Positions 4,270 through 18,769 of a DNA stretch of 64,000 bases are shown here, one piece after another. The stretch is from positions 1 through 64,000 of the forward strand of contig CAUJDF010000037.1 of the NCBI GenBank assembly GCA_963169045.1, in the 5' to 3' direction. Both the position numbers and the translations under genes were made by a program. The notes beneath the pieces were generated by a model. The model had not been told where the DNA came from and searched no databases. It saw nothing but the letters and a program-made list of their open reading frames with translations. This DNA is from Myxococcota bacterium (lineage in GTDB: Bacteria > Myxococcota_A > Bradymonadia > UBA7976 > UBA1532). The first letter of the stretch is position 1; each line of letters opens with the position of its first letter.

Positions 4270-5892
4270 TCAGTCGTCGGGGGAACCGGCCGCGATCCAG
4301 TCGCGCAGGCGCGCGACGAGGGCGGGGTCGAGCAGCGTGGGGTTGTTGAGCGGCATGTGCGACTCGCCGTCGGCGGGCACGCAGCGCGAGACCTTGCGGT
4401 AGAGCCAGCTGCCTTCGGGGTCGCCGGGGGCCACGAGCGGGAGGTCCGTGCGCCCGGTCGGTCGGTGGGCGAGCAGACGCTCGCGCAGGCCCGCGGAGGC
4501 CAGGTCGAGGCCGGCGGCGGGTGTTTCGGGGCCGTGACAGGCGTTGAACGAGCAGCTCGGGAGGAACATGTCGCGCCGCAGCAGGCCGAGCGCCGGCGAG
4601 GCGTCGGCCACCGCGTCCGGCGGCGTGTCGGCGCAGGGCGGGGGACCGGCGAGCTCTCCGGGCTCGAGCGGCGACGGCGGCACGTTGAGCGGCGCCGCGT
4701 CCTCGTCCGGCGTCGGCATCGTCTGTGCGGCGTTCTTCGGCAGCGTCACCACCGTGCACGGCCCGGTCGCGTAGGTGATGCCCTCCTGCGTGCCGACCAC
4801 CCGTGGGTTGAGGTAGACGCCGGCGTCCATGAGCACCGCCGAGTCGGCGAAGCCGAGCAGGTCGCACATCTCCCCGTCGCCGTAGCCCCACTCGACGCGC
4901 TCGTCCCGCGGGTTGCGGTAGCCGCACGTCAGCCGCAGGCCGCGCGCGCCCGTCAGATCCACCGCCGGCCGGAACGCCTTGCCGCTGGCCTCGCCGTCGA
5001 ACTCGCCGACGTCGAGCAGCACCTCGCCGTCGCGCGGGCCGCCGACGACCTCGACCCGGAAGTGGTTCCCGAGCGAGTGGTAGTGCGGCAGGAGCCAGTA
5101 GAGCTTCAGGTCGAACGGCCGCCGCGCCATGCGCTCGTAGCTCGCGGCCATGTCGCACTCGGACGTGACGCGCGCCTCGGATCGCGGTGGCACGTCGATC
5201 GGCTGGTAGGTCATGCGGAACGGCGTGACCACCGTGCGCACCGCCGTCGGGTGGACGGCCTCGAGGCCGAGCCGCAGGCGCGTCTCGCGGGCCGATCCGG
5301 CGAGGTTGAGCAGGTGCACCTGCACGACGACCTTGTGCCGCGGCGGGATCTTCACCACGACGCCCTCGCCGAGGTCCTGCTCTTCGTAGGCGGCCTGGGT
5401 CGACTGCGCGAACAGCACGGTGCCCCGCATGGCGGCCCGCACCTCGTCGAAGTCACGCGACGAGCAGCGGAACAGGCCGTCGGGACCGGCGTACTCGGCC
5501 TCGGGCACGACGAACCAGTTGGAGTGGTGCAGCGCGCCGTCGTTCGCGAGCCGCACGCGCTGGACGTAGAGCGGCGCCTCGTTGTGGAGCGTCCAGGCGG
5601 CGCACAGCTGCGTCTCTTCGAACGGCCGCAGCGCGAAGCGCCCGATCTCGCTCGCGATCAGCGCGCGGTCCGGGCGCGGCGGGGGGCGCGACGCGTCAGG
5701 CGTGGCGTCGGGAAACGCGGCATCGGGAGACGCGGCATCGGGAACTGCGGCGTCCGCGATCGGCGGCGCGGCGGCATCGGACGCGGCGGCGTCCGCGAGC
5801 GGCGGCGCGGCGTCGTCCGATGTCGCGGGCGCTTCGTCGTCACCACCACAGGCGGCCAGGAGGAGCGCGAAGGCGAGGAGGGCTCGGCGCAT
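4270..5892 (-). CDS. Lipoprotein with copper-monooxygenase-like fold and C-terminal cytochrome-type CxxxxCH motif
   Basis: A 540-residue lipoprotein: signal peptide and lipobox 'LLLAACGG' at residues 10-17, then an Asp/Ala/Pro-rich linker to about residue 75. The middle resembles type II copper ascorbate-dependent monooxygenases (PHM-like): 'ALHHSNWFVVP', 'KVVVQVHLLNLAG' and 'YWLLPHYHSLGNHF' supply the expected His pairs and trio. Near the C-terminus 'FLPSCSFNACHG' is a CxxxxCH motif like those in planctomycete-type cytochrome c domains, followed by 'SHMPLNNPTLL', the usual distal Met segment. ATG 5892 is chosen because it begins the signal peptide. It is the last gene of the sigma/anti-sigma cassette and its likely output. 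Catalytic activity is inference. Confidence 0.72.
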   Translation of the reverse strand: MRRALLAFALLLAACGGDDEAPATSDDAAPPLADAAASDAAAPPIADAAVPDAASPDAAFPDATPDASRPPPRPDRALIASEIGRFALRPFEETQLCAAWTLHNEAPLYVQRVRLANDGALHHSNWFVVPEAEYAGPDGLFRCSSRDFDEVRAAMRGTVLFAQSTQAAYEEQDLGEGVVVKIPPRHKVVVQVHLLNLAGSARETRLRLGLEAVHPTAVRTVVTPFRMTYQPIDVPPRSEARVTSECDMAASYERMARRPFDLKLYWLLPHYHSLGNHFRVEVVGGPRDGEVLLDVGEFDGEASGKAFRPAVDLTGARGLRLTCGYRNPRDERVEWGYGDGEMCDLLGFADSAVLMDAGVYLNPRVVGTQEGITYATGPCTVVTLPKNAAQTMPTPDEDAAPLNVPPSPLEPGELAGPPPCADTPPDAVADASPALGLLRRDMFLPSCSFNACHGPETPAAGLDLASAGLRERLLAHRPTGRTDLPLVAPGDPEGSWLYRKVSRCVPADGESHMPLNNPTLLDPALVARLRDWIAAGSPDD

Positions 5893-5954
5893 CCGCCGAG
5901 CATCGCCGCGCCGCCCCGCGGACGGCAAGCGCCGCCGCCGACCGCCGCGCGCCT

Positions 5955-6170
5955 TCAGTGCTTCTGCCGCACGTAGTCGATCGCCACCATCATCCGGGCG
6001 CACGTCCGCCGCTCCTTCTCGGAGACGTCGCTCGCGAGCCGTCGGGCCGCGGTGCACTCCGGTGAGTCGGGTCCCAAGACGCCGCACGCCTTCTCGGCCA
6101 GCTGCTCGCACTCGTTCTTCGTGCAGCCGCCGAGCGCCAGCACGGCCAGCAGGACGCATCCCATGCGCAT
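5955..6170 (-). CDS. Small Cys-containing lipoprotein
   Basis: A 71-residue lipoprotein with signal 'GCVLLAVLALGGC' and mature sequence beginning CTKNECEQLAEKAC. The mature part has four further Cys (CEQL, KAC, PEC, RTC), so disulfides in the periplasm are likely. The start at 6170 has a good ribosome site (GAGGGGGT, about 8 bases before). It lies 55 bases after the anti-sigma factor gene and 62 bases before the copper/heme lipoprotein gene, all in one direction, which suggests a single transcript. No family was recognised; the helical Cys-rich form resembles small helper lipoproteins found beside other exported metalloproteins. Confidence 0.7.
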   Translation of the reverse strand: MRMGCVLLAVLALGGCTKNECEQLAEKACGVLGPDSPECTAARRLASDVSEKERRTCARMMVAIDYVRQKH

Positions 6171-6225
6171 CGGCCACCCCCTCGCGGGAGCTTGCGACAC
6201 GCCGGTGCGGATGTCTACGGCGAGG

Positions 6226-7023
6226 TCAGTGCGCGTTTGCGACGAGGCGCAGCAGGTCGGTCTCGGGCAGGTCCGACGTATAGGCGTAGGTGAGCGCGCC
6301 CTTGCGGTAGACCGCCACGTTGTAGCCGTGGTGGTCGTGGTGGATCGACAGGCGGCGCCCGTTCACTTCGCGGATGGCGCTGTCGTCCTCGATCTCGAGG
6401 TCCTTGCCGTCGAACACGAGGACGGTGAGCTTGTGCGGGCCGACCCCGTAGAGGAGGTAGGCCGCGCGGCGGCTGCGCATGCCGCTGTCGCCACCGCCGA
6501 CCTTGCTCAGGCGGCCGCCGAGCAGCATGACCTGCTCGTCGTCGAAGCGCGGCGCGGCCAGCTCGAAGGGGAGCTTGTCGCGGAACCACTCGTCGACCTC
6601 GCGCGCCTCGGGCGTCGGCACCTCGATGGGCACGCGCTCGCAGTGCTGGCCGACCGCGTCGTCGACCACCGGCGCGAACCCGGTCATGGGGATGTAGAAG
6701 AGCGCCACCGCGCCGACGGCGGCCACCGCGGGCAACGGCGCGGCCACGCGGCTGAGCCAGCGGGCGGCGCGGTCGGGGCGCGACACCGTGCGCATGCGCG
6801 CCTGGATGCGCGCGCGCGCGTCCGCCGGCATGTCGCGCTTCTGCTGCATGTGGGACCGGATGCAGCGGCGGAACGACAGGTGGTCCTCCACCCGGCGCCG
6901 GCAGCACCCGCAGAGGGCGACGTGCGCGTCGAAGTCCGCCCGATCGCGTGCGTCGAACTCGTCGTCGAGGTACGCGTCGATGAACTTCCTGAAGTCGTCG
7001 CAGGTCACACGGCCCACGCTCAC
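6226..7023 (-). CDS. Anti-sigma factor with zinc-binding (ZAS, HxxxCxxC) N-terminus
   Basis: A 265-residue single-pass membrane protein. Residues 1-60 form the zf-HC2/ZAS domain with 'HVALCGCC' (H-x3-C-x2-C) and an earlier Cys in 'VTCDDF', the known zinc ligands by which such proteins hold an ECF sigma factor. A membrane segment 'VAAPLPAVAAVGAVALFYIP' follows at about residues 90-110, and the remaining 150 residues would sit in the periplasm as sensor. The GTG start overlaps the sigma factor stop (GTGA), so the two are translationally coupled. The HxxxCxxC type often responds to thiol oxidation; the signal here is unknown. Confidence 0.88.
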   Translation of the reverse strand: MSVGRVTCDDFRKFIDAYLDDEFDARDRADFDAHVALCGCCRRRVEDHLSFRRCIRSHMQQKRDMPADARARIQARMRTVSRPDRAARWLSRVAAPLPAVAAVGAVALFYIPMTGFAPVVDDAVGQHCERVPIEVPTPEAREVDEWFRDKLPFELAAPRFDDEQVMLLGGRLSKVGGGDSGMRSRRAAYLLYGVGPHKLTVLVFDGKDLEIEDDSAIREVNGRRLSIHHDHHGYNVAVYRKGALTYAYTSDLPETDLLRLVANAH

Positions 7024-7682
7024 TCCTCCCCGCCGTTCGCAACCTTGCGCCGCCGCCGGAAGGCATCGAGGTCGGCGACGTTCTCGGACGTGACCCCCTC
7101 CGGCGCGTCGATGACGCCCCGCTCCACTGCATAGTCGAACAGGCGCGCCTGCAATAGCTTGCGCGCCCGGTGGAGCCTACTCATGACCGTGCCGACGGGG
7201 CAGTCGAGCACGTCGGCGATCTCCTTGTAGGAGAAGTCGTGCATGTCGGCGAGCAGCACCGTCATGCGGAACTCGAAGGGCAGGTCGTCGAGCGCGCGCA
7301 TCACGTCGTCGGAGAGCACCTTCTTGAAGAAGTCGTCCCGCGTATCGGGCGGGATGAAGGTGTTCTCCTCGGCTGCATACCGGCCGAGCAGGTCGTCGAT
7401 CTCGCGATCGTCGATGACGGCCTGCTCCGTCTGCCGCTTGCGATACTTGTTGATGAAGATGTTCGTCTGGATCCGGAAGAGCCACGCCTTGATGTTCGTG
7501 CCCTTCTCGAACTTGTGCCAGAAACGGTACGAGCGAAGGAGCGTCTCCTGGACGAGGTCCTCGGCTCGGCTCGGGTCGCGGGTCATGCGCAAGGCCGCCC
7601 CGTAGAGGGCGTCCATGTGCGGCATCGCGATCTCCTCGAACTCGAGGTGATCATCGCGCTTGCGGAAAAGGCCTCCGAGCAT
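7020..7682 (-). CDS. ECF-family RNA polymerase sigma factor
   Basis: A 220-residue group IV sigma-70. Region 2 is 'MPHMDALYGAALRMTRDPSRAEDLVQETLLRSYRFW' (split here: 'RAEDLVQETLLRSY' is the core), with 'GTNIKAWLFRIQTN' behind it. Region 4 is 'LADMHDFSYKEIADVLDCPVGTVMSRLHRARK', the -35-binding helix-turn-helix. An upstream ATG at 7757 would add 25 residues, but its ribosome site lies inside a 13-bp hairpin stem (7763-7800). ATG 7682 has a free GGGGGT-type site and begins where the homology starts, so it is preferred. It is coupled to the anti-sigma gene by a GTGA overlap and probably drives its own cassette and the lipoproteins behind it. Confidence 0.88.
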   Translation of the reverse strand: MLGGLFRKRDDHLEFEEIAMPHMDALYGAALRMTRDPSRAEDLVQETLLRSYRFWHKFEKGTNIKAWLFRIQTNIFINKYRKRQTEQAVIDDREIDDLLGRYAAEENTFIPPDTRDDFFKKVLSDDVMRALDDLPFEFRMTVLLADMHDFSYKEIADVLDCPVGTVMSRLHRARKLLQARLFDYAVERGVIDAPEGVTSENVADLDAFRRRRKVANGGEE

Positions 7683-7762
7683 GGATGGCGACCCCCTTCG
7701 GGCAATTTCGTCCAGCAGTCGCTGATCTAGACGAACGAACAGGGCGATCGGATTCATTCCGC

Positions 7763-7800
7763 CTGGGCGATTCCCCGAAGAACAATCGGGAATCGCCCAG
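7763..7800 (-). terminator. Perfect 13-bp hairpin after alanine dehydrogenase
   Basis: CTGGGCGATTCCC at 7763-7775 pairs exactly with 7788-7800 around a 12-base loop. It lies 9 bases past the ald stop in the direction of transcription. There is no T-run after it, so it may be a Rho-assisted terminator, a transcript-end stabiliser or an attenuator before the sigma factor gene. The stem covers the ribosome site that an upstream sigma start at 7757 would need. Confidence 0.6.
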
Positions 7801-7809
7801 TAGTTCCAA

Positions 7810-8940
7810 TTACTTGGACGCGCTCCACACGCGGCCCGCGGGCACGTGCTCGAGTCCCAGCGACTCGGCGACGGCGCGGTGGGTGCACACGCCGCCGAGC
7901 GTGTTGAGGCCGCGGGCGAGGGCGGGGTCGGCCTCGCAGGCGGCCCGGAGGCCCTGCTCGGCAATACGGACGCCGTAGGGCATCGTCACGTTGTTCAGTG
8001 CGAACGTGCTCGTGTGCGCCACCGCGCCCGGCATGTTGGCCACGCAGTAGTGCAGCACGCCGTCGACGACGAACGTGGGATCGTCGTGGGTGGTGGGGTG
8101 CACGGTCTCGATGCAGCCGCCCTGGTCGACGGCGACGTCGACGATGACCGAGCCCGGCTCCATCTTCGACACGAGCTCCTTCGTGACGAGCGTGGGGGCG
8201 CGGGCGCCGGTGACGAGCACCGCGCCGACGAGCAGGTCGGCGTGCGGCACGAGGCTCGCGATGGTGTCGGTGTCGCTGTAGAGCGTCTGCACGCGGCCGA
8301 GGAACACGTCGTCGAGGTACGTGAGCCGGTTCACGTTGGTGTCGAGGATGGTGACGCTGGCGCCGAGGCCGAGGGCGACCTTCGCCGCGTTGATGCCGAC
8401 GACGCCGCCGCCGATGATCACCACCTGGCCGCGCTTCACGCCGGGCACGCCGCCGAGCAGCAGGCCCTTGCCGCCGGCCTCCTTCTCGAGGCAGCGCGCG
8501 CCGACCTGCGGGGCCATCTTGCCGGCCACCTCGGACATGGGTTTGAGCAGCGGCAGGCTGCCGTCGGCGAGCTCGATCGTCTCGTAGGCGACGGCGGCCA
8601 CGCGTTTCGCAAGCAACACCCGAGCGAGCTCGGGCACGGCCGCGAGGTGGAAGTACGTGTAGATGATCTGCCCTTCGCGAATGAGGTCGTACTCCTTCGG
8701 GATGGGCTCCTTCACCTTCACGATCATGTCGGCCTGGCCCCAGACGGAGGCCGCGTCGTCGACGAGCGTCGCGCCGGCGTCGGTGTAGCGCTCGTCGGGG
8801 ATGCCGCTGCCCTCGCCGGCGCTGCGCTGCACGAGCACGCTGTGGCCGCGCGCCACCATGGCGCGAACGCCCGCCGGAATCATGCCTACGCGGTACTCCT
8901 GGCTCTTGACCTCTCTCGGAACGCCGACGATCACGGGCAA
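7810..8940 (-). CDS. ald: Alanine dehydrogenase
   Basis: A 376-residue NAD-dependent L-alanine dehydrogenase interconverting alanine with pyruvate and ammonia in the cytoplasm. The N-terminus '[15 protein letters not shown]' is the family signature. '[20 protein letters not shown]' and 'TYFHLA' carry the catalytic Lys and His. The Rossmann loop is '[27 protein letters not shown]'. Length matches the family (about 370). The ribosome site GGAGG sits a few bases ahead of ATG 8940. It is divergent from the CAP-domain gene across 92 bases, and its transcript is followed by a strong hairpin before the sigma factor gene, so it is probably a separate unit. Confidence 0.95.
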
Positions 8941-9032: not shown

Positions 9033-10244
9033 ATGCGTATCATCGGACGGGTGGGCGGGGTCCTGGCCGTGATGCTGGCGGCGGGCGTGGCGTCGGGCGA
9101 CGTCGCGGCGCTCGTCTCGCGTCTGCTCGAGGCGCACGGCTGGGGCGCGCCGGCGCGCGAGGCGGTGCTCGACGACGCCGCGGCCCGGGTGGCGGCGCGG
9201 CTCGCGGACCGACCCGAGGCGCCGGCGCCCGAGGCCCCCGACGCGCACGTGCGCTTCGTGTTGCAGGCGCTGGCGGTGGGCGACGCCGAGGTGCGGCCGT
9301 TCACCCTGCGTCACGCGGCGCCCGCCGATTTCGAGGCGCGGTTGCCGGCGTTGCTGACCCGGCTCGACCGGCGCTTCCCGCCGACGCACTTCGGCGTGGC
9401 GACCGCGGTGCGGCACGGCGCGTACACGACGACGATCGTGACGATCCACCGCGGCGTGACGCTCGACGAGCCGCTCCCGGTGACGGCGGCGCCGGGCGAC
9501 CTCGTGCGGGTGGCGGGCGCGCTGCGGCGCGGCTACTTCGCGCCGCGGGTGCTCTACGAGCCGCCGGGGCGGCCGGTCTCGGAGCTCGACGCCACCGCCG
9601 AGGATAGGCGGGTGCACGCCGCGCTCTCGTTCGACGCGGGGCCCGGGGCATACGGGATCGAGCTGTTGGCGGACAGCCGCCACGGTCCGGTGGTGCTGCT
9701 CAACCACCGCGTCTGGGTGGGCACGGCGCCGCCGGCGCTGCCGACGGTGCGCATCGCGCCGCCGCCCGCCGAGGGCACGCCGCCCGACCGGGGTCTGTTC
9801 GAGCTCGTGAACCAGGAACGCTTGCGGTCGGGGGCAAGGCCGCTCGAGTGGGATCCGCGCCTCGCGCAGGTCGCCGCCGCGTACGCGGGCACGCTGCGGC
9901 GGCTGTCGACGCTGGCGCACCACTCGAGCGACGAGGGCACGTTGGCTTCGCGGCTGCGCCTCGCGGGGCTGAGGTTCGAACGGCTGGCGGAGAACCTGGC
10001 CGAGGCGGACGGTCCCGCCGCGGCGCTCGATGCCTTCCGGGCGAGCCCGGGGCACAAGCGCAACGTCGTCGATCCGGGGTTGACCCACGTCGGCGTCGGC
10101 GTGGCGGGGCGCTACTTCGTCGTCGCCTTCGCCACCTGGCCGAAGCCGCCGGCGGTCACTCCGACGCGCCCCCCGCGCCGCCCATCCCCCCGGCGCCGCC
10201 GCCGCCGTCGTCACCGCCGCCCACCAGCGTGCGAACGCCGGTGA
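9033..10244 (+). CDS. Secreted CAP (SCP/PR-1) domain protein
   Basis: A 403-residue exported protein with signal peptide '[16 protein letters not shown]'. Residues of about 40-250 form a region I do not recognise. A CAP domain occupies roughly 255-370: '[31 protein letters not shown]', 'LAHHSS', 'LAENLAE', and '[20 protein letters not shown]'. The two His and Glu are the conserved cavity residues. Bacterial CAP proteins are extracellular or periplasmic; their activity is mostly unknown. The last 25 residues are a Pro/Arg-rich tail encoded opposite the Gly-rich end of the convergent lipoprotein gene, an 89-base overlap. The tail may be accidental coding. Confidence 0.82.
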
Positions 10245-10752
10245 CCTGCAGGTCGGCGGAGCAGTCGACGACGCCGAAGGCGTAGTAGCGGCGCTTCGCG
10301 GTGGCCGTCATCGTGGCCTCGACCGCGTTCACGTCGGGCTGCTTCAGCGTGCCGGTGACGATCTCGATGCGGCTGAGGCCGTCGACGCCGTAGTACAGGC
10401 CGTACTCGAAGGTGCCTTCGAGGCCGCTGCCGCTGATGCCGCCGTGGAACGTGCGGCCCGGCAGGTCGTCGAGGCCCTGGGTGAGCTTGCCGTCGGTGTG
10501 GACGAAGATCTTCGTCTCGTCGGCCTTCTCGCCCTTCTTCGGCAGCACGAAGTTGCCGAGCGGCAGGCAGTTCGTGTCGGTGACGGTGGTCTTCAGCTCC
10601 CACGTCCCCGAGAAGTTCGTGCCGCCGTTCCACTGGCCTTCGCCGATGGCGTCGACGTCTGCCTCGGTGATGGCCGGATTGCCGGACGCGTCGGTGGCGT
10701 CGGCGCCGCAGCCGGCCAAGAGCAGGACCGCTGCCGCGAGCTTGATGCGCAT
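10156..10752 (-). CDS. Lipoprotein of unknown function with Gly-rich tail
   Basis: A 198-residue lipoprotein ('AAAVLLLAGC' lipobox) whose mature part looks like a small beta-rich domain: 'NFSGTWELKTTVTDTNC', 'TFHGGISGSGLEGTFEYGLYYG' and '[21 protein letters not shown]'. The three-strand 'GTWELKTT' start recalls lipocalin-like or META-type folds, but no family was identified. The end is a run of Gly/Asp/Ala that overlaps the Pro/Arg tail of the convergent CAP gene. The start at 10752 faces the caspase operon across a 189-base divergent region that should contain promoters for both. Confidence 0.7.
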   Translation of the reverse strand: MRIKLAAAVLLLAGCGADATDASGNPAITEADVDAIGEGQWNGGTNFSGTWELKTTVTDTNCLPLGNFVLPKKGEKADETKIFVHTDGKLTQGLDDLPGRTFHGGISGSGLEGTFEYGLYYGVDGLSRIEIVTGTLKQPDVNAVEATMTATAKRRYYAFGVVDCSADLQVTGVRTLVGGGDDGGGGAGGMGGAGGASE

Positions 10753-10941: not shown

Positions 10942-13059
10942 GTGAATCCCCGACTGACGACGAGGGCGCTCTGCGGCGCCATGTGCCTGCTGTGGGCCGG
11001 CGCCGCCGTCGCCGGTCCGTGGCCCGACCTCGACGCGCCGCCGCCGACGCTCGGCGGAGGCGAGCACGACGCGGCGGTGGTCGTCGGCGTCGAGGACTAC
11101 GCCTTCCTGGCCGACGTGCCGGGGGCCGGGCGCAACGCGCGGGCCTGGTACGAGTACCTCGTGCGCACGCGAAAGGTGCCCGTGGGCCACGTGTCGCTGT
11201 TGCTCGACCGCGCGGGGACCAACACCAAGGTGCGCCGGGCGGTCGCCGAGGCCGCCGCGCAGGTGAGACCGGGCGGGACGCTCTGGTTCGTGTTCATCGG
11301 CCACGGCGCGCCGGCGAAGGACGGCGGCGACGGTCTGCTCGTGGGCGTCGACGCCCAGGTCGACGACGTCGACTTCAGCAGCCGGAGCGTGTCGCGGCGC
11401 GATCTCCTCGCCGAGATGGCGAGGGCGCGCGGCGCCCGGCCCGTGGCGGTCCTCGACACCTGCTTCAGCGGGCTCGACGGCGAGAGCCGTCCGCTCGTGC
11501 CGGGGACGCAGCTCGTCGTGAACCCCGAGGCGCTGCGCGCCGGCCTGGCGGGCGTGGCCGGCGTGACGGTCCTGTCCGCGGGGCGCGCCGACGAGATCGC
11601 CGGACCGTTGCCGGGCGAGGCGCGGCCCGCGTTCAGCTACCTCGTGCTCGGGGCGCTCCGCGGGTGGGGCGACGCCGACGGCGACGGCCGCGTGACGGCG
11701 CGCGAGGCGGCGGACTACGCGGGGACGGCGCTCCGGCTGTTGGCGAAGGGGCGCAGTCAGCGGCCGGGGGTGAGCGGCGAAGACGCGCCGCTCACGCCGA
11801 AGCTGGCGACGGCCGAGGCGGGGCCGGACCTCGCGGGGCTGGTGGTGGCGCTGGCAGGCGCGACGTCGCGCGGCGAGGGGTTTGCGAACGAGCTGGCCGA
11901 GCTCGAGCGCGCGGCACGGGCCCGCGAGGCGGCCGAGAAGCTCGAGCTCGAGGCGCGCGGGCGGGCGGTCGAGGCGCACCGGCGGCGGGTCGACGACGAC
12001 TGGGCGCTGCTCGAGCGGTTCGTCGCCGCGTCGAAGGGACCGGAGGCGGTCCGCGCCGTCGAGGCGTTCCTGGCGAAGCACGCGGCGCACCCGCTCGGCA
12101 ATCCGCGCGCGAAGGACGCCGAGGAGCTGCTGCGCCGCATGCAGGCCCGCAACGTGTCGCGCGTCCTCGTGCGCATCGCGCCGGGGGCCATCACGATGGG
12201 CTCGCCGGCCGACGAGCCGGGGCGCGACGGCGACGAGGAGGCGCGCCGCGTCCGGATCACCCGCCCGTTCTGGCTGCAGGCGTCCGAGGTCACCCAGCGC
12301 GAGTGGAAGACGCTGATGGGCAACAATCCCGCGTACTTCCGAGAGTGCGGCGACGACTGTCCCGTCGAGAGCGTGACCTGGTACGACGCCGTGGCCTACC
12401 TCAACGCGCTCTCGCGCCGCGAGGGGCTGCCCGAGTGTTACGCGCTGTCCGAGTGCAAGGGGACGCCCGGCACCGGCTGCTGGCCCGGCCAGGACGCCCC
12501 CAACGCGTGCTGGGGCGAGTACCGGTGCGAGGGGGTGCGCTTCGCCGGGCTGGACTGCCCCGGCTACCGGCTGCCGACGGAGGCCGAGTGGGAGTACGCG
12601 GCGCGCGCCGGCGCGACGACGGCCACCTACGCCGGGGCGATGCCCATCCTCGGGGCGAAGAACGCGCCGGCGCTCGATCCCATCGCCTGGTACGGCGGCA
12701 ACAGCGGGGCCACGTACGCCGGCGCCGTCGACTGCAGCGGCTGGGCGCAGCGGCAGGTCGCCGCCGCGACGTGCGGCCCGCAGCCCGTCGGCCGCAAGCG
12801 GGCCAACGCGTGGGGGCTGGCCGACATGCTCGGCAACGTCGCGGAGTGGACGGCCGACGACTCCCTCGACGTCGGGCTCGGCGCGGACGACCCGTTCAGC
12901 GTGGGCGACGAGGCGCGGCCGGACGACGACTGGCGACGCATCCGCGGCGGCGACTGGCGCCTCGACGCGAAGGGCGTGCGGCTGGCGTATCGCAACCGGT
13001 TTCGCGCCGACGCCGCTTCGTTCTCCGTCGGCTTTCGCGCCGCGAGGACGATCCGATGA
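10942..13059 (+). CDS. Exported caspase-like peptidase fused to an FGE/SUMF1 domain (first gene of caspase operon)
   Basis: 705 residues. The GTG start at 10942 is preceded by GGAGAGGGG and gives signal peptide 'RALCGAMCLLWAGAAVAG'. Residues of about 45-300 are a peptidase C14-like caspase domain: strand 'DAAVVVGVEDY', catalytic His121 in 'FIGHGAP', catalytic Cys174 in 'LDTCFSG', then 'GADGDGR'-type acidic loop 'DADGDGRVTAREAADY'. A Lys/Arg/Glu-rich coiled segment (about 310-395) leads to an FGE-sulfatase domain ('AITMGSPADEPG', 'EVTQREWKTLMG', 'GYRLPTEAEWEYAARAG', 'GLADMLGNVAEWTAD', 'IRGGDW'). Such domains act as formylglycine enzymes or as binding modules; which applies here is unknown. It overlaps the next gene by ATGA. 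Confidence 0.9.
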   Translation: MNPRLTTRALCGAMCLLWAGAAVAGPWPDLDAPPPTLGGGEHDAAVVVGVEDYAFLADVPGAGRNARAWYEYLVRTRKVPVGHVSLLLDRAGTNTKVRRAVAEAAAQVRPGGTLWFVFIGHGAPAKDGGDGLLVGVDAQVDDVDFSSRSVSRRDLLAEMARARGARPVAVLDTCFSGLDGESRPLVPGTQLVVNPEALRAGLAGVAGVTVLSAGRADEIAGPLPGEARPAFSYLVLGALRGWGDADGDGRVTAREAADYAGTALRLLAKGRSQRPGVSGEDAPLTPKLATAEAGPDLAGLVVALAGATSRGEGFANELAELERAARAREAAEKLELEARGRAVEAHRRRVDDDWALLERFVAASKGPEAVRAVEAFLAKHAAHPLGNPRAKDAEELLRRMQARNVSRVLVRIAPGAITMGSPADEPGRDGDEEARRVRITRPFWLQASEVTQREWKTLMGNNPAYFRECGDDCPVESVTWYDAVAYLNALSRREGLPECYALSECKGTPGTGCWPGQDAPNACWGEYRCEGVRFAGLDCPGYRLPTEAEWEYAARAGATTATYAGAMPILGAKNAPALDPIAWYGGNSGATYAGAVDCSGWAQRQVAAATCGPQPVGRKRANAWGLADMLGNVAEWTADDSLDVGLGADDPFSVGDEARPDDDWRRIRGGDWRLDAKGVRLAYRNRFRADAASFSVGFRAARTIR

Positions 13060-15110
13060 GGCGCGCGGCGCTCGCCCTCTTGCTGCCGACGTTCGCCGCC
13101 GCCGCCGAGCTTCCGGCGCTCGCGCCGCCGCGCACCGGGCGGGCGGCCCCGAACGACGCGGCGGTGGTCGTCGGCATCGAGACGTACGCGTTCGGGCTGC
13201 CGCCGGCGCCGTACGCGGTGCGCGACGCGCGCGTCTTCGCCGACTTCCTGCGCGACACGGTGGGCGTCCCGCGGCAGCGCGTGAAGGAGCTCACGGGGGA
13301 CTTCGCGATCAGCGACGCCATCGTCGACGAGGTGCGCGACAAGGCGAAGCTCGTCGGCCCCGGCGGCACGTTGTGGATCTACTTCAGCGGCCATGGCGCG
13401 CCGGCGCCGGACGGCGACGCGTTCCTGTACGGCGCCGCCGTCAATCCGGATGGACGGTACGTCGAGAAGCAGGCGGTGCGGCGCAGCGCGCTCCAGCAGC
13501 TGGCAGGCACCGTGCCCTCCGGCGCGCGGGCGGTCATCGTGCTCGACGCGTGCTTCAGCGGGAAGGGCCGCGACGGCGCGGCGCTCGGGAACACGCGGTT
13601 CGCCGCGCCGTCGTCGCTGCTGGCGGCGCCCAAGGTGGCGGTGTGGTCGGCGGCGCAGGGGAGCGAGTACGCGGGGCCGCTCGAGCCGGCGCGGCACGGC
13701 CTGTTCACGTACTTCGCGGTCGGGGCGCTCTCCGGGTGGGCCGACGCGAACGCCGACGGCGCGGTCGACCTGCGCGAGGCCGAGCGCTACGTGCGCGACG
13801 GGATGGCGGCCGCGCTCGAGCGCGCCGGCCGTGCGCAGGCGCCGGAGCTGACCGCGCCGGACGACGCCGACCGCTGGGTCGTGGCCGCGCTCGGGACGAG
13901 CGGGGCGCGGGCGCCCGACCTGCGCACGTTCCTCGACGACGCCCCCGCGCCGGTGGCCGTGCGTCCCGACGCGTTCGTGCCGGTGACGGTGACGAGCGAT
14001 CCGGCGGGCGCGACGCTGCGCGTCGACGGCAAGGAGGTGGGGCATACGCCGTGGACCGACTTCCTGCCGCCCGGATCCCATGACTTCGAGGCGTCGCTCG
14101 CAGGCCACGACGGGGCGAAGTCGACGGTGCACGTTGCGCCGCAGGCGGCGGGGCAGGCGCGGCTCGTGAGCTTGCGGCTCGCGGCGCGCAAGGGGTTCGT
14201 GCAGGTGCTCGTGCGCGGTCCCGACGGGGCGGCGATCCCGGCGCAGGTCAAGGTCGACGGCGGCGAGGCGGTGGCGGCCCCGGCGACGTTCGAGGCGCTC
14301 GAGGGGCGGCGCACCGTGGCGGCCACCGCCGCGTCCAGCACGGCGACGGCGCAGGTCGACGTGGTCGCCGGGCAGACGGCGCGGGTGGTGCTGGAGCTCG
14401 GCGTCGTCCGGGGCAAGGCGGGCATCGAGTGGGTGGCGTTCCCGGGCGCCCCCTTCACGATGGGCGCGAACGACGGCTTCCACGACGAGCGCCCGCCGCA
14501 CCGCGTCACGGTGCCGCCGTTCCAGATCGCGAAGACCGAGGTCACCGTCGCGCAGTACCGCGCCTGCGTCGAGGCGGGGGCGTGCACCGCGCCCGGCACC
14601 GAGGCCGGCTGCAACTGGCACGTCGCCGGCCGCGAGCAGCACCCTGTGAACTGCGTCGACTGGGCACAGGCGCGGGCCTTCTCGACCTGGGTCGGCGGGC
14701 GTCTGCCCACCGAAGCGGAGTGGGAGCATGCGGCGCGCGGCGGCGGGGCGGTGGGGCCGTGGCCCTGGGGCGCCGAGGAGGCCACCTGCGCCCGGGCGGT
14801 GATGGAGGACCCGAGCAACGATGGCTGCGGACGCAACGCGACGTGGCCGGTCTGCTCGAAGCCGGCGGGCAACTCGCGGCAGGGGCTCTGCGACCTCGCC
14901 GGCAACGTCAAGGAGTGGGTCGAGGACTGCTTCGGCGACTACGCCGGGGCGCCGGTGGACGGCAGCGCGCGGACGGAGGGGGAATGCAAGGAGCGGGCGG
15001 TGCGCGGCGGCTCCTGGGCGGAGACCAAGGGCATCGTGCGCGTCTCCAACCGCACCGGCTACAGCCCGCGGTCGGGCAACTTCCTCTTCGGCTTCCGGCC
15101 GGCGCGGTGA
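13056..15110 (+). CDS. Exported caspase-like peptidase with PEGA and FGE/SUMF1 domains (second gene)
   Basis: 684 residues with signal 'RRAALALLLPTFAAAAE'. The caspase domain (about 30-285) has 'DAAVVVGIETYAFG', His113 in 'YFSGHGAP' and Cys166 in 'LDACFSGKGRDG'. A PEGA-like domain follows (about 305-360: 'VTSDPAGATLRVDGKEVGHTPW', read in two parts), then a second beta module, and from about 460 an FGE-sulfatase domain ('APFTMGANDGFHDERPPH', 'KTEVTVAQYRACVEAG', 'GRLPTEAEWEHAARGG', 'CDLAGNVKEWVEDC', 'VRGGSWAE'). The ATG sits inside the preceding stop (ATGA), so translation is coupled. It is paralogous to the genes on both sides; the caspase part closely matches the third gene. Confidence 0.9.
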   Translation: MRRAALALLLPTFAAAAELPALAPPRTGRAAPNDAAVVVGIETYAFGLPPAPYAVRDARVFADFLRDTVGVPRQRVKELTGDFAISDAIVDEVRDKAKLVGPGGTLWIYFSGHGAPAPDGDAFLYGAAVNPDGRYVEKQAVRRSALQQLAGTVPSGARAVIVLDACFSGKGRDGAALGNTRFAAPSSLLAAPKVAVWSAAQGSEYAGPLEPARHGLFTYFAVGALSGWADANADGAVDLREAERYVRDGMAAALERAGRAQAPELTAPDDADRWVVAALGTSGARAPDLRTFLDDAPAPVAVRPDAFVPVTVTSDPAGATLRVDGKEVGHTPWTDFLPPGSHDFEASLAGHDGAKSTVHVAPQAAGQARLVSLRLAARKGFVQVLVRGPDGAAIPAQVKVDGGEAVAAPATFEALEGRRTVAATAASSTATAQVDVVAGQTARVVLELGVVRGKAGIEWVAFPGAPFTMGANDGFHDERPPHRVTVPPFQIAKTEVTVAQYRACVEAGACTAPGTEAGCNWHVAGREQHPVNCVDWAQARAFSTWVGGRLPTEAEWEHAARGGGAVGPWPWGAEEATCARAVMEDPSNDGCGRNATWPVCSKPAGNSRQGLCDLAGNVKEWVEDCFGDYAGAPVDGSARTEGECKERAVRGGSWAETKGIVRVSNRTGYSPRSGNFLFGFRPAR

Positions 15111-15886
15111 GGCCGGCGGATTGCCTGCCGCGCCTGGCCGGCCCGGGCGGCACGTTGTGGGTCGACTTCAGCGGGCACGGGGCGCCGGCGCCCGACGGCG
15201 ACGCGTGGCCGTTCGGCGTGGCGACGAACCCGATGCCGTCCGACCTCGAAGAGGGGTCCGTGCGACGTCGGACGCTGCAGCGGATCGCGGCGGACGCGCC
15301 CACCATCCTCGTGCTCGACGCCTGCTTCAGCGGCAAGGGGCGCGACGGCGACGCGGTGATGGGCGTGCGCTTCGCCGTGCCCGCCTCGCTCGCCGCGGCG
15401 CCGCGCGTCGTCGTCCGGACGGCGGCGAGCGGCGCCGCGTACGCCGGGCCGCCCGAGGGCGCCCGGCACGGTCTGTTCACCGACTTCGCGGTCGGCGCGC
15501 TCTCCGGTTGGGCCGACGACGACGGCGACGGGCAGGTGCGGCTGCGCGAGGCCGAGCGGTCCGTGCGCGACCACATGAGCCTCGCGCTCGAGCGGGCCGG
15601 GCGGCGGCAGTCGCCGGAGCTCGCCGCGCCCGACGAGGCGGACCGGTGGGTCGTCGCGGCGCCGGGCGCGCGCCGCGGTCCCGAGGAGGCGATGCTGCGG
15701 GCGGCGCTCGGGGGCGTCGGTCCGGCGCCGGCGCCGGTGCGCGAGGCGGCGGCGCCCGCCGGTGCGCGACACGCCGACGCCAACGGCCTGCGCGACACTG
15801 GCCGCGTCCCGGCGCGGCGCGTGAAGATGCTCGAGGGCGCGCGGACGTTCGCTTCGTCTTCCCGGTTGGGAGGTGGGCCCGCATGA
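15107..15886 (+). CDS. Truncated, apparently rearranged third caspase-like gene
   Basis: A 259-residue frame starting with a GTG overlapped by the preceding stop (GTGA). It enters the caspase fold directly at 'GPGGTLWVDFSGHGAP' (His24) and keeps 'LDACFSGKGRDG' (Cys73), so the dyad survives, but the first strands and signal peptide are missing. It ends without PEGA or FGE domains. Strikingly, its C-terminal 'LRDTGRVPARRVKMLEG' matches the N-terminal 'LRDTVGVPRQRVKELTG' of the second gene, that is, the part lacking at its own front. This looks like a circular permutation or the residue of unequal crossing-over among tandem copies. It may be a decaying gene, yet both coupling overlaps are intact. 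Confidence 0.7.
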   Translation: MRPADCLPRLAGPGGTLWVDFSGHGAPAPDGDAWPFGVATNPMPSDLEEGSVRRRTLQRIAADAPTILVLDACFSGKGRDGDAVMGVRFAVPASLAAAPRVVVRTAASGAAYAGPPEGARHGLFTDFAVGALSGWADDDGDGQVRLREAERSVRDHMSLALERAGRRQSPELAAPDEADRWVVAAPGARRGPEEAMLRAALGGVGPAPAPVREAAAPAGARHADANGLRDTGRVPARRVKMLEGARTFASSSRLGGGPA

Positions 15887-17124
15887 CACGCCACGCCACG
15901 ATGCTCGCGCTCCTCCTCGCCACCACGGTCCAGGCCGCCCCCGCCACCTGGACCGGCCCGTGCGAGGCCCCGCGCCCGCCCGAGGGCGCCTGGCGCGTCG
16001 AGCGCGGCTACGCCCGCGCCGCCACCGCCAGCGCCGCCGAGGAGGAGGCGCAGGCCAAGGCACGCCGCCAGCTCGTCGACGCCGTGGCCGCGCCGCTCAC
16101 GCCGCAGGAGCGCGCCGAGGTCGAGGCCCACGTCGACACGTCGTGGCAGCCGGTGCGCGTCCGCGAGGCCGCCGGCGGCTTCGAGGCCTGCGCCGTCGCG
16201 ATCGTGCGCCAGCGCGACGTGAGCGAGCGCCTGCGCCGCCTGAGCGGTGACCTCGACGCGCAGTTGAAGGAGCGCGCCGCGTCCCTTGCCGCGGGGCTCG
16301 GCGCCAAGGGGCTCGTGCGCGCCGACATCCCGCTCTGGGACGACGGCACGCCCGCCGACGCGCTCGGCCGCGAGATGCACCTGCGCTGGCTCGGCGCCGT
16401 CGGCCTGCCGGTCGCCGGGCCCACCGACACGGCGTGGACGGCGCAGGTCCGCGGGCAGCTCGGCCGCGGCGGCGGCGACACGTGCCGCCTCCAGCTCTTC
16501 TGGCAGCGGCGCGGCAAGCCCGGCTGGCTGCCCCTCGAGCCGGTGAGCTTCAACCCGATGGCGGTCGGCCTGCAGAGCTGCGCCCCGCCCGCGGAGGGCG
16601 CGCTCTCCGACGCGCGCCTCGGCCTCGACGCCGGCAGCCGCCCCGGCAGCGGCGGCCTCGAGCTGCGCCTCGAGAGCCCGCCGCGCCACGACCTGCTCTG
16701 CGACGGCGAGCGCTTCTCCGTCGTCGCCGAGGCCAGCGCCGACGCCTGGGTGCGCGTCTACAGCGTCGCCGAGGACGGCCGCGTCCTGCTCGGCTGGGCG
16801 TCGGATAAGCCCGTGCGCCGCTTCGCCCCGGCCGATCCGGCGGTCGGCGTCCGCCTGCCCGGCAACCAGCGCGACCGCATGATCGCCGTCGCCATCCCGG
16901 CGAACCTCGGCCCCGGCGCGTTCGCCGGCCTGCCCACCGAGCCCACCTGCTTCGGCACCGGCTTCGACGCGCGCCACCTGCCGCCCGAGGCCGCCGTCGC
17001 GAGCCTCGCCCACAGCGTCGCCGCGCCGGGCGCCGCCGGCTGTCCGAGCGACCCGGCGAAGCGCGCCGAAGGCGACGCGATGCGCGCCGCGATCGCCGCC
17101 CTCCCGCGTTGCGCCGCCCGCTGA
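15883..17124 (+). CDS. Exported LPP20/DUF4384-like protein, last gene of caspase operon
   Basis: 413 residues with signal 'MLALLLATTVQAAP'. Residues 20-110 ('WRVERGYARAATASAAEEEAQAKARRQLVDAV', read as one helix-strand unit, plus 'CAVAIVRQRDVSERL') resemble the LPP20/flagellar-assembly-lipoprotein fold. The segment around 250-310 ('GERFSVVAEASADAWVRVYSVAEDGRVLLGW') resembles DUF4384, a domain often fused or linked to bacterial caspases. The remainder is unrecognised. ATG is nested in the stop of the truncated caspase gene. Its position suggests that it is an accessory or adaptor for the exported caspases; that is inference. It meets the kinase gene tail-to-tail with 7 bases between. Confidence 0.72.
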   Translation: MTRHATMLALLLATTVQAAPATWTGPCEAPRPPEGAWRVERGYARAATASAAEEEAQAKARRQLVDAVAAPLTPQERAEVEAHVDTSWQPVRVREAAGGFEACAVAIVRQRDVSERLRRLSGDLDAQLKERAASLAAGLGAKGLVRADIPLWDDGTPADALGREMHLRWLGAVGLPVAGPTDTAWTAQVRGQLGRGGGDTCRLQLFWQRRGKPGWLPLEPVSFNPMAVGLQSCAPPAEGALSDARLGLDAGSRPGSGGLELRLESPPRHDLLCDGERFSVVAEASADAWVRVYSVAEDGRVLLGWASDKPVRRFAPADPAVGVRLPGNQRDRMIAVAIPANLGPGAFAGLPTEPTCFGTGFDARHLPPEAAVASLAHSVAAPGAAGCPSDPAKRAEGDAMRAAIAALPRCAAR

Positions 17125-17131
17125 ATCGTCT

Positions 17132-18768
<1,637 letters not shown>

Positions 18769-18769
<1 letters not shown>

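Follow-up and report, generated by a model that had tools for sequence, protein, structure and literature searches.

Bacterial caspases are nearly always treated as cytoplasmic enzymes of cell death or defence, with unknown substrates, and an operon of apparently exported caspases at positions 10,942 to 17,124 of a Myxococcota contig raises the question of what such enzymes act with, and where in the cell. The window analysed here, meaning the whole stretch of 64,000 nucleotides, comprises bases 1-64000 of contig 37 (CAUJDF010000037.1) in an assembly of 9.0 Mb and 109 contigs (GCA_963169045.1). Its operon holds four open reading frames (ORFs): ORF1 and ORF2 encode caspases fused to FGE domains (hereafter FGE heads), ORF3 looks like a partial copy of ORF2, and ORF4 belongs to a protein family that we call B. 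The original prediction saw in these genes a periplasmic proteolytic cascade. Based on comparison across the phylum, we conclude that the functional unit is a caspase with two constant partners, B and a lipoprotein that we call A, both of which that prediction had missed as partners, and not a caspase with another caspase. The association of the three genes, extracytoplasmic and conserved Myxococcota-wide, is well supported, and it offers candidate substrates together with a place of action, the envelope.

Constant partners of exported Myxococcota caspases

Searching relatives with ORF4 led to protein A, which adjoins both members of family B and exported caspases. A, an LPP20-type lipoprotein, is 330-420 aa long and shows the conserved motifs FLR..FDxDPSxYxGRF, CC...C and YFVGVS. 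Among 379 genomes of the phylum, 53 contained A, 42 contained B and 37 contained both (Fisher p 3e-33). Neighbours were counted at 39 A loci by six-frame profile search, other gene calls being made with a home-made codon model. At 32 of the 39 loci (26/32 genera) B was no more than 3 kb from A, and 24 loci (20/32 genera; families f1, f3, f4, f14, f19, f22, f24 and f44) had a caspase no more than 5 kb away. Pfam caspases number 0-17 per genome in the class, so that proximity to A by chance would be expected at about 1%; in four genomes (G021, G023, G024 and G025) no Pfam caspase was found other than the one next to A. A further scan of a genome collection with a narrow A alignment returned 10 loci, all in metagenome-assembled genomes, with titles including Myxococcota, Myxococcales, Deltaproteobacteria and Nannocystaceae.

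With C standing for the caspase, the module occurs in the orders A-B-C, A-C-B and C-B-A and in divergent forms, and its orientation varies. The caspase-to-B order of the window is found again in two other genomes (G001 and G007), so that a gene-order check outside the source genome once more places a caspase beside the ORF4 family. That ORF4 and the caspases are adjacent by chance, or through simple local duplication, might be argued from the fact that ORF1-3 are paralogous duplicates and that A is absent from the locus in the window; this explanation is contradicted by the recurrence of B-caspase and A-B-caspase adjacency in eight families with changed gene orders, and we regard it as extremely improbable. 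In the open-licence literature we found no paper that links caspases to LPP20 or describes an A-B-caspase module, and the three-part envelope module has apparently been undescribed until now.

Most caspases of the module carry a signal peptide or a lipobox, as called, like every statement on export in this work, by a simple signal-peptide rule. Their accessory parts vary and include FGE, PEGA, HEAT repeats and N-terminal extensions; in G007 the C-terminal part of a caspase is outer-membrane-barrel-like (Pfam OMP_b-brl, E 0.001). HEAT repeats (Pfam HEAT_2) were seen in three module caspases scanned (L117:8804-10537, L119:3055-4692 and L126:3799-5448), and they likely sit on longer caspases without FGE heads. 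In one region of G007 (G007:C574:10000-45000; L041 and L042) a single A gene and two B genes are accompanied by several FGE genes and by six or more caspase genes, and two of the caspases have outer-membrane beta-barrel-like ends. In a chain of closely spaced genes in G001 (C54; L043:4255-17004), kinase-like genes and a gene for an FHA-domain protein precede a caspase, B and A.

The operon, its caspase domains and their FGE heads

The four genes lie on the plus strand and overlap by 4 bases at every junction (ATGA, GTGA and ATGA); both the coordinates and the overlaps given in the original prediction were verified. They are as follows.

10942..13059, + strand: ORF1, exported caspase-FGE fusion of 705 aa with a signal-peptide-like N-terminus
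13056..15110, + strand: ORF2, exported caspase-PEGA-FGE fusion of 684 aa; ATGA overlap with ORF1
15107..15886, + strand: ORF3, apparently derived from the ORF2 caspase by truncation and rearrangement, without signal peptide, dyad H24/C73 kept
15883..17124, + strand: ORF4 (family B), exported LPP20-like, LpoB-like and DUF4384 protein of 413 aa; ATGA overlap with ORF3

The view that all four products are exported holds for ORF1, ORF2 and ORF4, which have signal-peptide-like starts, and fails for ORF3, which has none. Within ORF1 and ORF2 the domains are arranged as follows.

11056..11784, + strand: ORF1 caspase domain (caspase profile built for this work, E 7e-94); H121 codon at 11302-11304, C174 codon at 11461-11463
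12160..13056, + strand: ORF1 FGE head of C-type-lectin fold (Pfam, E 1e-37); no cysteine after residue 611
13140..13865, + strand: ORF2 caspase domain (Pfam C14, E 4.8e-10); H113 codon at 13392-13394, C166 codon at 13551-13553
13983..14141, + strand: ORF2 PEGA domain, residues 310-362 (Pfam, E 1e-8)
14421..15107, + strand: ORF2 FGE head (Pfam, E 6e-50)

Thus both genes encode caspase-FGE fusions with signal-peptide-like N-termini, as had been proposed, and their heads do differ, with PEGA plus FGE in ORF2 and FGE alone in ORF1. The dyads are exactly the residues originally claimed (H121/C174 and H113/C166), and the His and Cys are kept without exception in 29 related caspases. ORF2 scored 39.9 bits against Pfam C14 (cut-off 21.4), and ORF1 gave no Pfam C14 match, an E-value of 6e-19 with an NCBIfam caspase model (below its cut-off) and 3e-12 with a PADLOC caspase model. 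Membership of the EACC1-associated caspases (NF047832) of STAND conflict systems was rejected, the scores being 68 and 72 bits at a curated cut-off of 140.

In each intact caspase domain the catalytic Cys is the only Cys, and each FGE head contains 10; Cys-rich heads beside single-Cys caspase domains would be in keeping with export. Active FGE has a catalytic cysteine pair near its C-terminus. This pair is absent from both heads, the last Cys being residue 611 of 705 in ORF1 and 644 of 684 in ORF2. Signal peptides, disulfide-rich FGE domains and the presence of at least six caspase genes in the G007:C574 region could also be taken to mean that the caspases serve feeding or predation, degrading foreign proteins at the surface or outside the cell, attached through their FGE or PEGA heads to surfaces or polysaccharide. 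Caspase-family enzymes are, however, specific rather than digestive, many of the homologues are lipid-anchored and thus kept in the envelope, and two constant non-protease partners, A and B, would be left unexplained; we consider this role improbable.

How the heads relate to the caspases became apparent from the two A genes of this genome, both of which lie outside the window, on contigs 28 and 38. On contig 28, the neighbours of A are a relative of B and a caspase that is a lipoprotein, and on contig 38 (L045) A (5370-6401) overlaps a caspase-FGE gene (6398-8311) by 4 bases. The caspase domain of the latter is 92.5% identical to that of ORF1 over 254 residues, whereas the FGE heads of the two share 33-35%, the identity falling sharply at about residue 390, where the FGE domain starts. 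Relative to ORF2 the situation is reversed, with heads 65-66% and caspases 40% identical. From this mismatch among paralogues it follows that, to judge by their sequences, FGE heads are swapped as whole domains between caspases, and such intragenomic exchange on a constant caspase supports FGE domains as recognition modules. Diversification of the heads by a diversity-generating retroelement (DGR) was rejected, as the assembly contains no DGR-type reverse transcriptase: both RVT_1 genes of the genome are of QG type in motif 4, and neither has the DGR motif IGxxxSQ.

Another exported caspase of this genome is encoded on contig 14 (L048:5079-8876) in an operon with an extracytoplasmic function (ECF) sigma factor, an anti-sigma-like protein and a lipoprotein, and shows a weak DUF4384 match directly upstream of its caspase domain. 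The operon resembles the sigma-factor metacaspase operons recorded in Myxococcus xanthus (PMC3501461).

ORF3 had been described as a third caspase-like protein, a description that does not withstand comparison with ORF2. The frame opens within the caspase domain, at the equivalent of about ORF2 residue 98. It has no signal peptide, and the ~97 residues that precede this point in ORF2, with the initial strands and helix of the caspase fold, are missing from their place. Part of this N-terminal sequence has instead moved to the 3' end of the gene.

15747..15832, + strand: displaced caspase N-terminal fragment at the ORF3 3' end (blastn to ORF2 nt 149-237, 74% identity over 90 bp, E 9e-11)

The fragment reads LRDTGRVPARRVKMLEG in ORF3 and LRDTVGVPRQRVKELTG in its ORF2 counterpart. 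GC content at third codon positions is 0.97 in the core of ORF3 and 0.86 in the tail. The dyad H24/C73 is retained, and the Pfam C14 score of 16.8 bits is under the cut-off of 21.4. The ratio of nonsynonymous to synonymous substitution (0.48) carries no information here, synonymous sites being almost saturated. On account of its truncation, the displaced fragment and the lost codon bias of the tail, we rejected ORF3 as a functional third caspase; it seems to have arisen from a tandem duplicate of ORF2 that was later rearranged, and is probably a non-functional relic.

These observations bear on the proposed cascade, in which one caspase would activate another. In its favour, ORF1 and ORF2 encode intact caspases that bear different heads and, given their overlapping genes, would be co-expressed; operons containing two or three metacaspases have also been recorded (PMC3501461). 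Yet the third caspase is a probable relic and most homologous modules hold one caspase only; the cascade found no support, and we consider it very improbable.

Predicted folds of B and A and their possible role

No Pfam family matched ORF4 above cut-off, and the best DUF4384 match among 17 homologues had an E-value of 0.0021. The Pfam LPP20 model matched neither the ORF4 family nor A, and a PDB sequence search with B returned only a designed repeat protein. Domains of ORF4 were assigned from an alignment of 17 relatives, an AlphaFold model (predicted local distance difference test, pLDDT, 76.6) and structure comparison, with the following result.

15949..16251, + strand: LPP20-like domain, residues 23-123; model against H. 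pylori Lpp20 (5ok8), Z 8.6, root-mean-square deviation (rmsd) 3.5, 95 residues aligned
16243..16557, + strand: LpoB/TolB-N-like domain, residues 121-225; against the LpoB C-domain (4q6z), Z 9.1, rmsd 2.7, 98 residues aligned
16696..16902, + strand: DUF4384 beta-sandwich, approximately residues 272-340; hhalign against DUF4384 members of relatives, 97.4%

For ORF4 as for A, 5ok8 ranked first or nearly so among the structure matches and spanned most of the LPP20 domain. In the profile-profile comparison the DUF4384 score was 60, the maximum in 20 column-shuffled controls being 17. The earlier label of ORF4 as LPP20/DUF4384-like is thereby borne out by fold and by profile, with the Pfam DUF4384 match itself below threshold.

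LpoB is an outer-membrane activator of PBP1b. The match of the B middle domain to LpoB, and the LPP20 domains of both A and B, would agree with envelope regulation without pores, in which a regulatory periplasmic caspase trims the LPP20/LpoB-like lipoproteins A and B, which would govern outer-membrane or peptidoglycan machinery in response to envelope stress. LpoB-type domains are, however, a widespread adaptor fold, gene calls around A loci showed no consistent additional neighbour of cell-wall synthesis, and the swapping of FGE heads would fit better with a need to recognise ligands that vary. In favour of regulation is also the exported caspase in the ECF sigma/anti-sigma operon on contig 14, an arrangement shared with M. 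xanthus metacaspases (PMC3501461). On balance we consider this main rival somewhat unlikely.

A different role is suggested by the predicted fold of A, modelled with AlphaFold from nine sequences (pLDDT 74). In the model, residues 232-358 form an LPP20 domain (5ok8, Z 8.6), while the PDB matches listed for residues 33-226 were all gasdermins, cholesterol-dependent cytolysins (CDCs), CDC-like proteins (CDCLs), MACPF proteins or the related stonustoxin. The N-terminal domain matched bacterial gasdermin 8sl0 with Z 6.4 (rmsd 4.3, 137 aligned), 9a84 with Z 6.2 and RCD-1 with Z 5.6, and CDC-like proteins and cytolysins with Z 5.0-5.3 (CDCLs 5.2-5.3); for comparison, a CDCL and a bacterial gasdermin are reported to match each other with a DALI Z of 8.7 (PMC11952106). 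In a library of viral structures the high-ranking matches of the model were confined to phage lipoproteins of LPP20 type and did not reach significance, and Pfam MACPF occurred in only 2 of 189 genomes of the phylum, too few for a profile test of A. The balance of the model comparisons tips slightly towards a MACPF/CDC/gasdermin-type fold for the N-terminal domain. In variants of A at L130, L131, L132 and L141 (Nannocystaceae and others) this domain is kept and the LPP20 part has diverged, and neither B nor a caspase lies close by; two of them end in FSSD/FSFSGD-type repeats.

We tentatively propose that an exported, sensor-headed caspase processes the pore-former-like lipoprotein A within the envelope module, which we hold to be possible though short of probable. 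The caspase would be retained in the envelope alongside the LPP20 proteins, where an exchangeable FGE or PEGA head may sense a ligand at the cell surface. Once activated, it would cut A, probably between the N-terminal and LPP20 domains, and a membrane-permeabilising, possibly pore-forming fragment would be released; the outcome could be self-destruction or defence at the envelope, or antagonism of neighbours. The more specific version, an extracytoplasmic counterpart of caspase-gasdermin systems in which FGE-headed caspases activate lipid-anchored A with the help of B and the heads are diversified by whole-domain exchange, is in our view unlikely. If A were indeed a pore-former, caspase-triggered membrane permeabilisation would occur also outside the bacterial cytoplasm.

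Several observations weigh against processing of a pore-former. The fold comes from one model of nine sequences with Z below 8, possibly reflecting a common arrangement; Foldseek matches of the model were not significant, and no sequence match of A to MACPF/gasdermin families (Pfam, E 1) or PDB chains (E 10) was found. The linker of A contains Arg/Lys in about 10 of 16 sequences, with no strict cleavage site visible. No caspase lies within 5 kb at 15 of the 39 A loci, some of them on short contigs, Nannocystaceae-like variants of A have neither B nor a caspase nearby, and the operon in the window does not encode A. Finally, the LpoB likeness of B fits cell-wall regulation equally well, and export of the products is called by the simple rule given above.

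Known systems and neighbouring genes

Among the closest described systems are prokaryotic caspase homologues (metacaspases/orthocaspases, C14) with FGE-sulfatase domains. They likewise have a caspase domain with the His/Cys dyad followed by a C-terminal FGE; some versions probably carry a signal peptide, and operons with several caspases are reported (PMC3501461). The proteins described here differ from them in their constant partners A (LPP20 lipoprotein) and B (LPP20-LpoB-DUF4384), in the exchange of FGE heads between near-identical caspases and in the lipoprotein and outer-membrane-barrel-like forms found in relatives.

Bacterial gasdermin genes adjoin caspase-like proteases and, often, FGE-type lectins (PMC9612521). 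The A-B-caspase module shares with those operons FGE-type domains and a caspase-like protease, here next to a protein for which a gasdermin-like fold is tentatively predicted, A having an adjacent protease at the 24 loci counted above. Bacterial gasdermin is a cytoplasmic protein with a short inhibitory peptide at its C-terminus; the products of the present module are exported lipoproteins, A ends in an LPP20 domain, and no sequence similarity of A to gasdermins was detected. C11 proteases belong to clan CD. Secreted CDCLs, which are activated by such proteases (PMC11952106), resemble A in its proposed role as exported CDC-fold proteins that require cutting by a cysteine protease; A differs from them in lacking detectable sequence similarity and the long/short two-component architecture, and in having an LPP20 domain in place of domain 4. 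The LPP20 fold of H. pylori Lpp20 (HP1456) and of FlgT/LPP20-family envelope proteins recurs C-terminally in A and N-terminally in B, and both A and B differ from these proteins in their large extra domains and caspase partners. Also comparable are the DGR-diversified conflict systems of multicellular bacteria, in which FGE heads on protease-linked proteins are thought to sense invaders (PMC10907252, PMC7159879). Unlike those, the proteins of the present operon are exported and lack STAND NTPases, and their genome shows whole-domain exchange instead of a DGR-type reverse transcriptase.

The operon is flanked by genes of other types. Directly upstream lie a secreted CAP/YkwD-domain protein (9033-10244, + strand) and a divergent small lipoprotein gene (10156-10752, - strand). 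Downstream, the operon is convergent with a Ser/Thr protein kinase gene with a long C-terminal part (17132-18769 of the window, - strand), and kinases also occur near several A loci of family f3.

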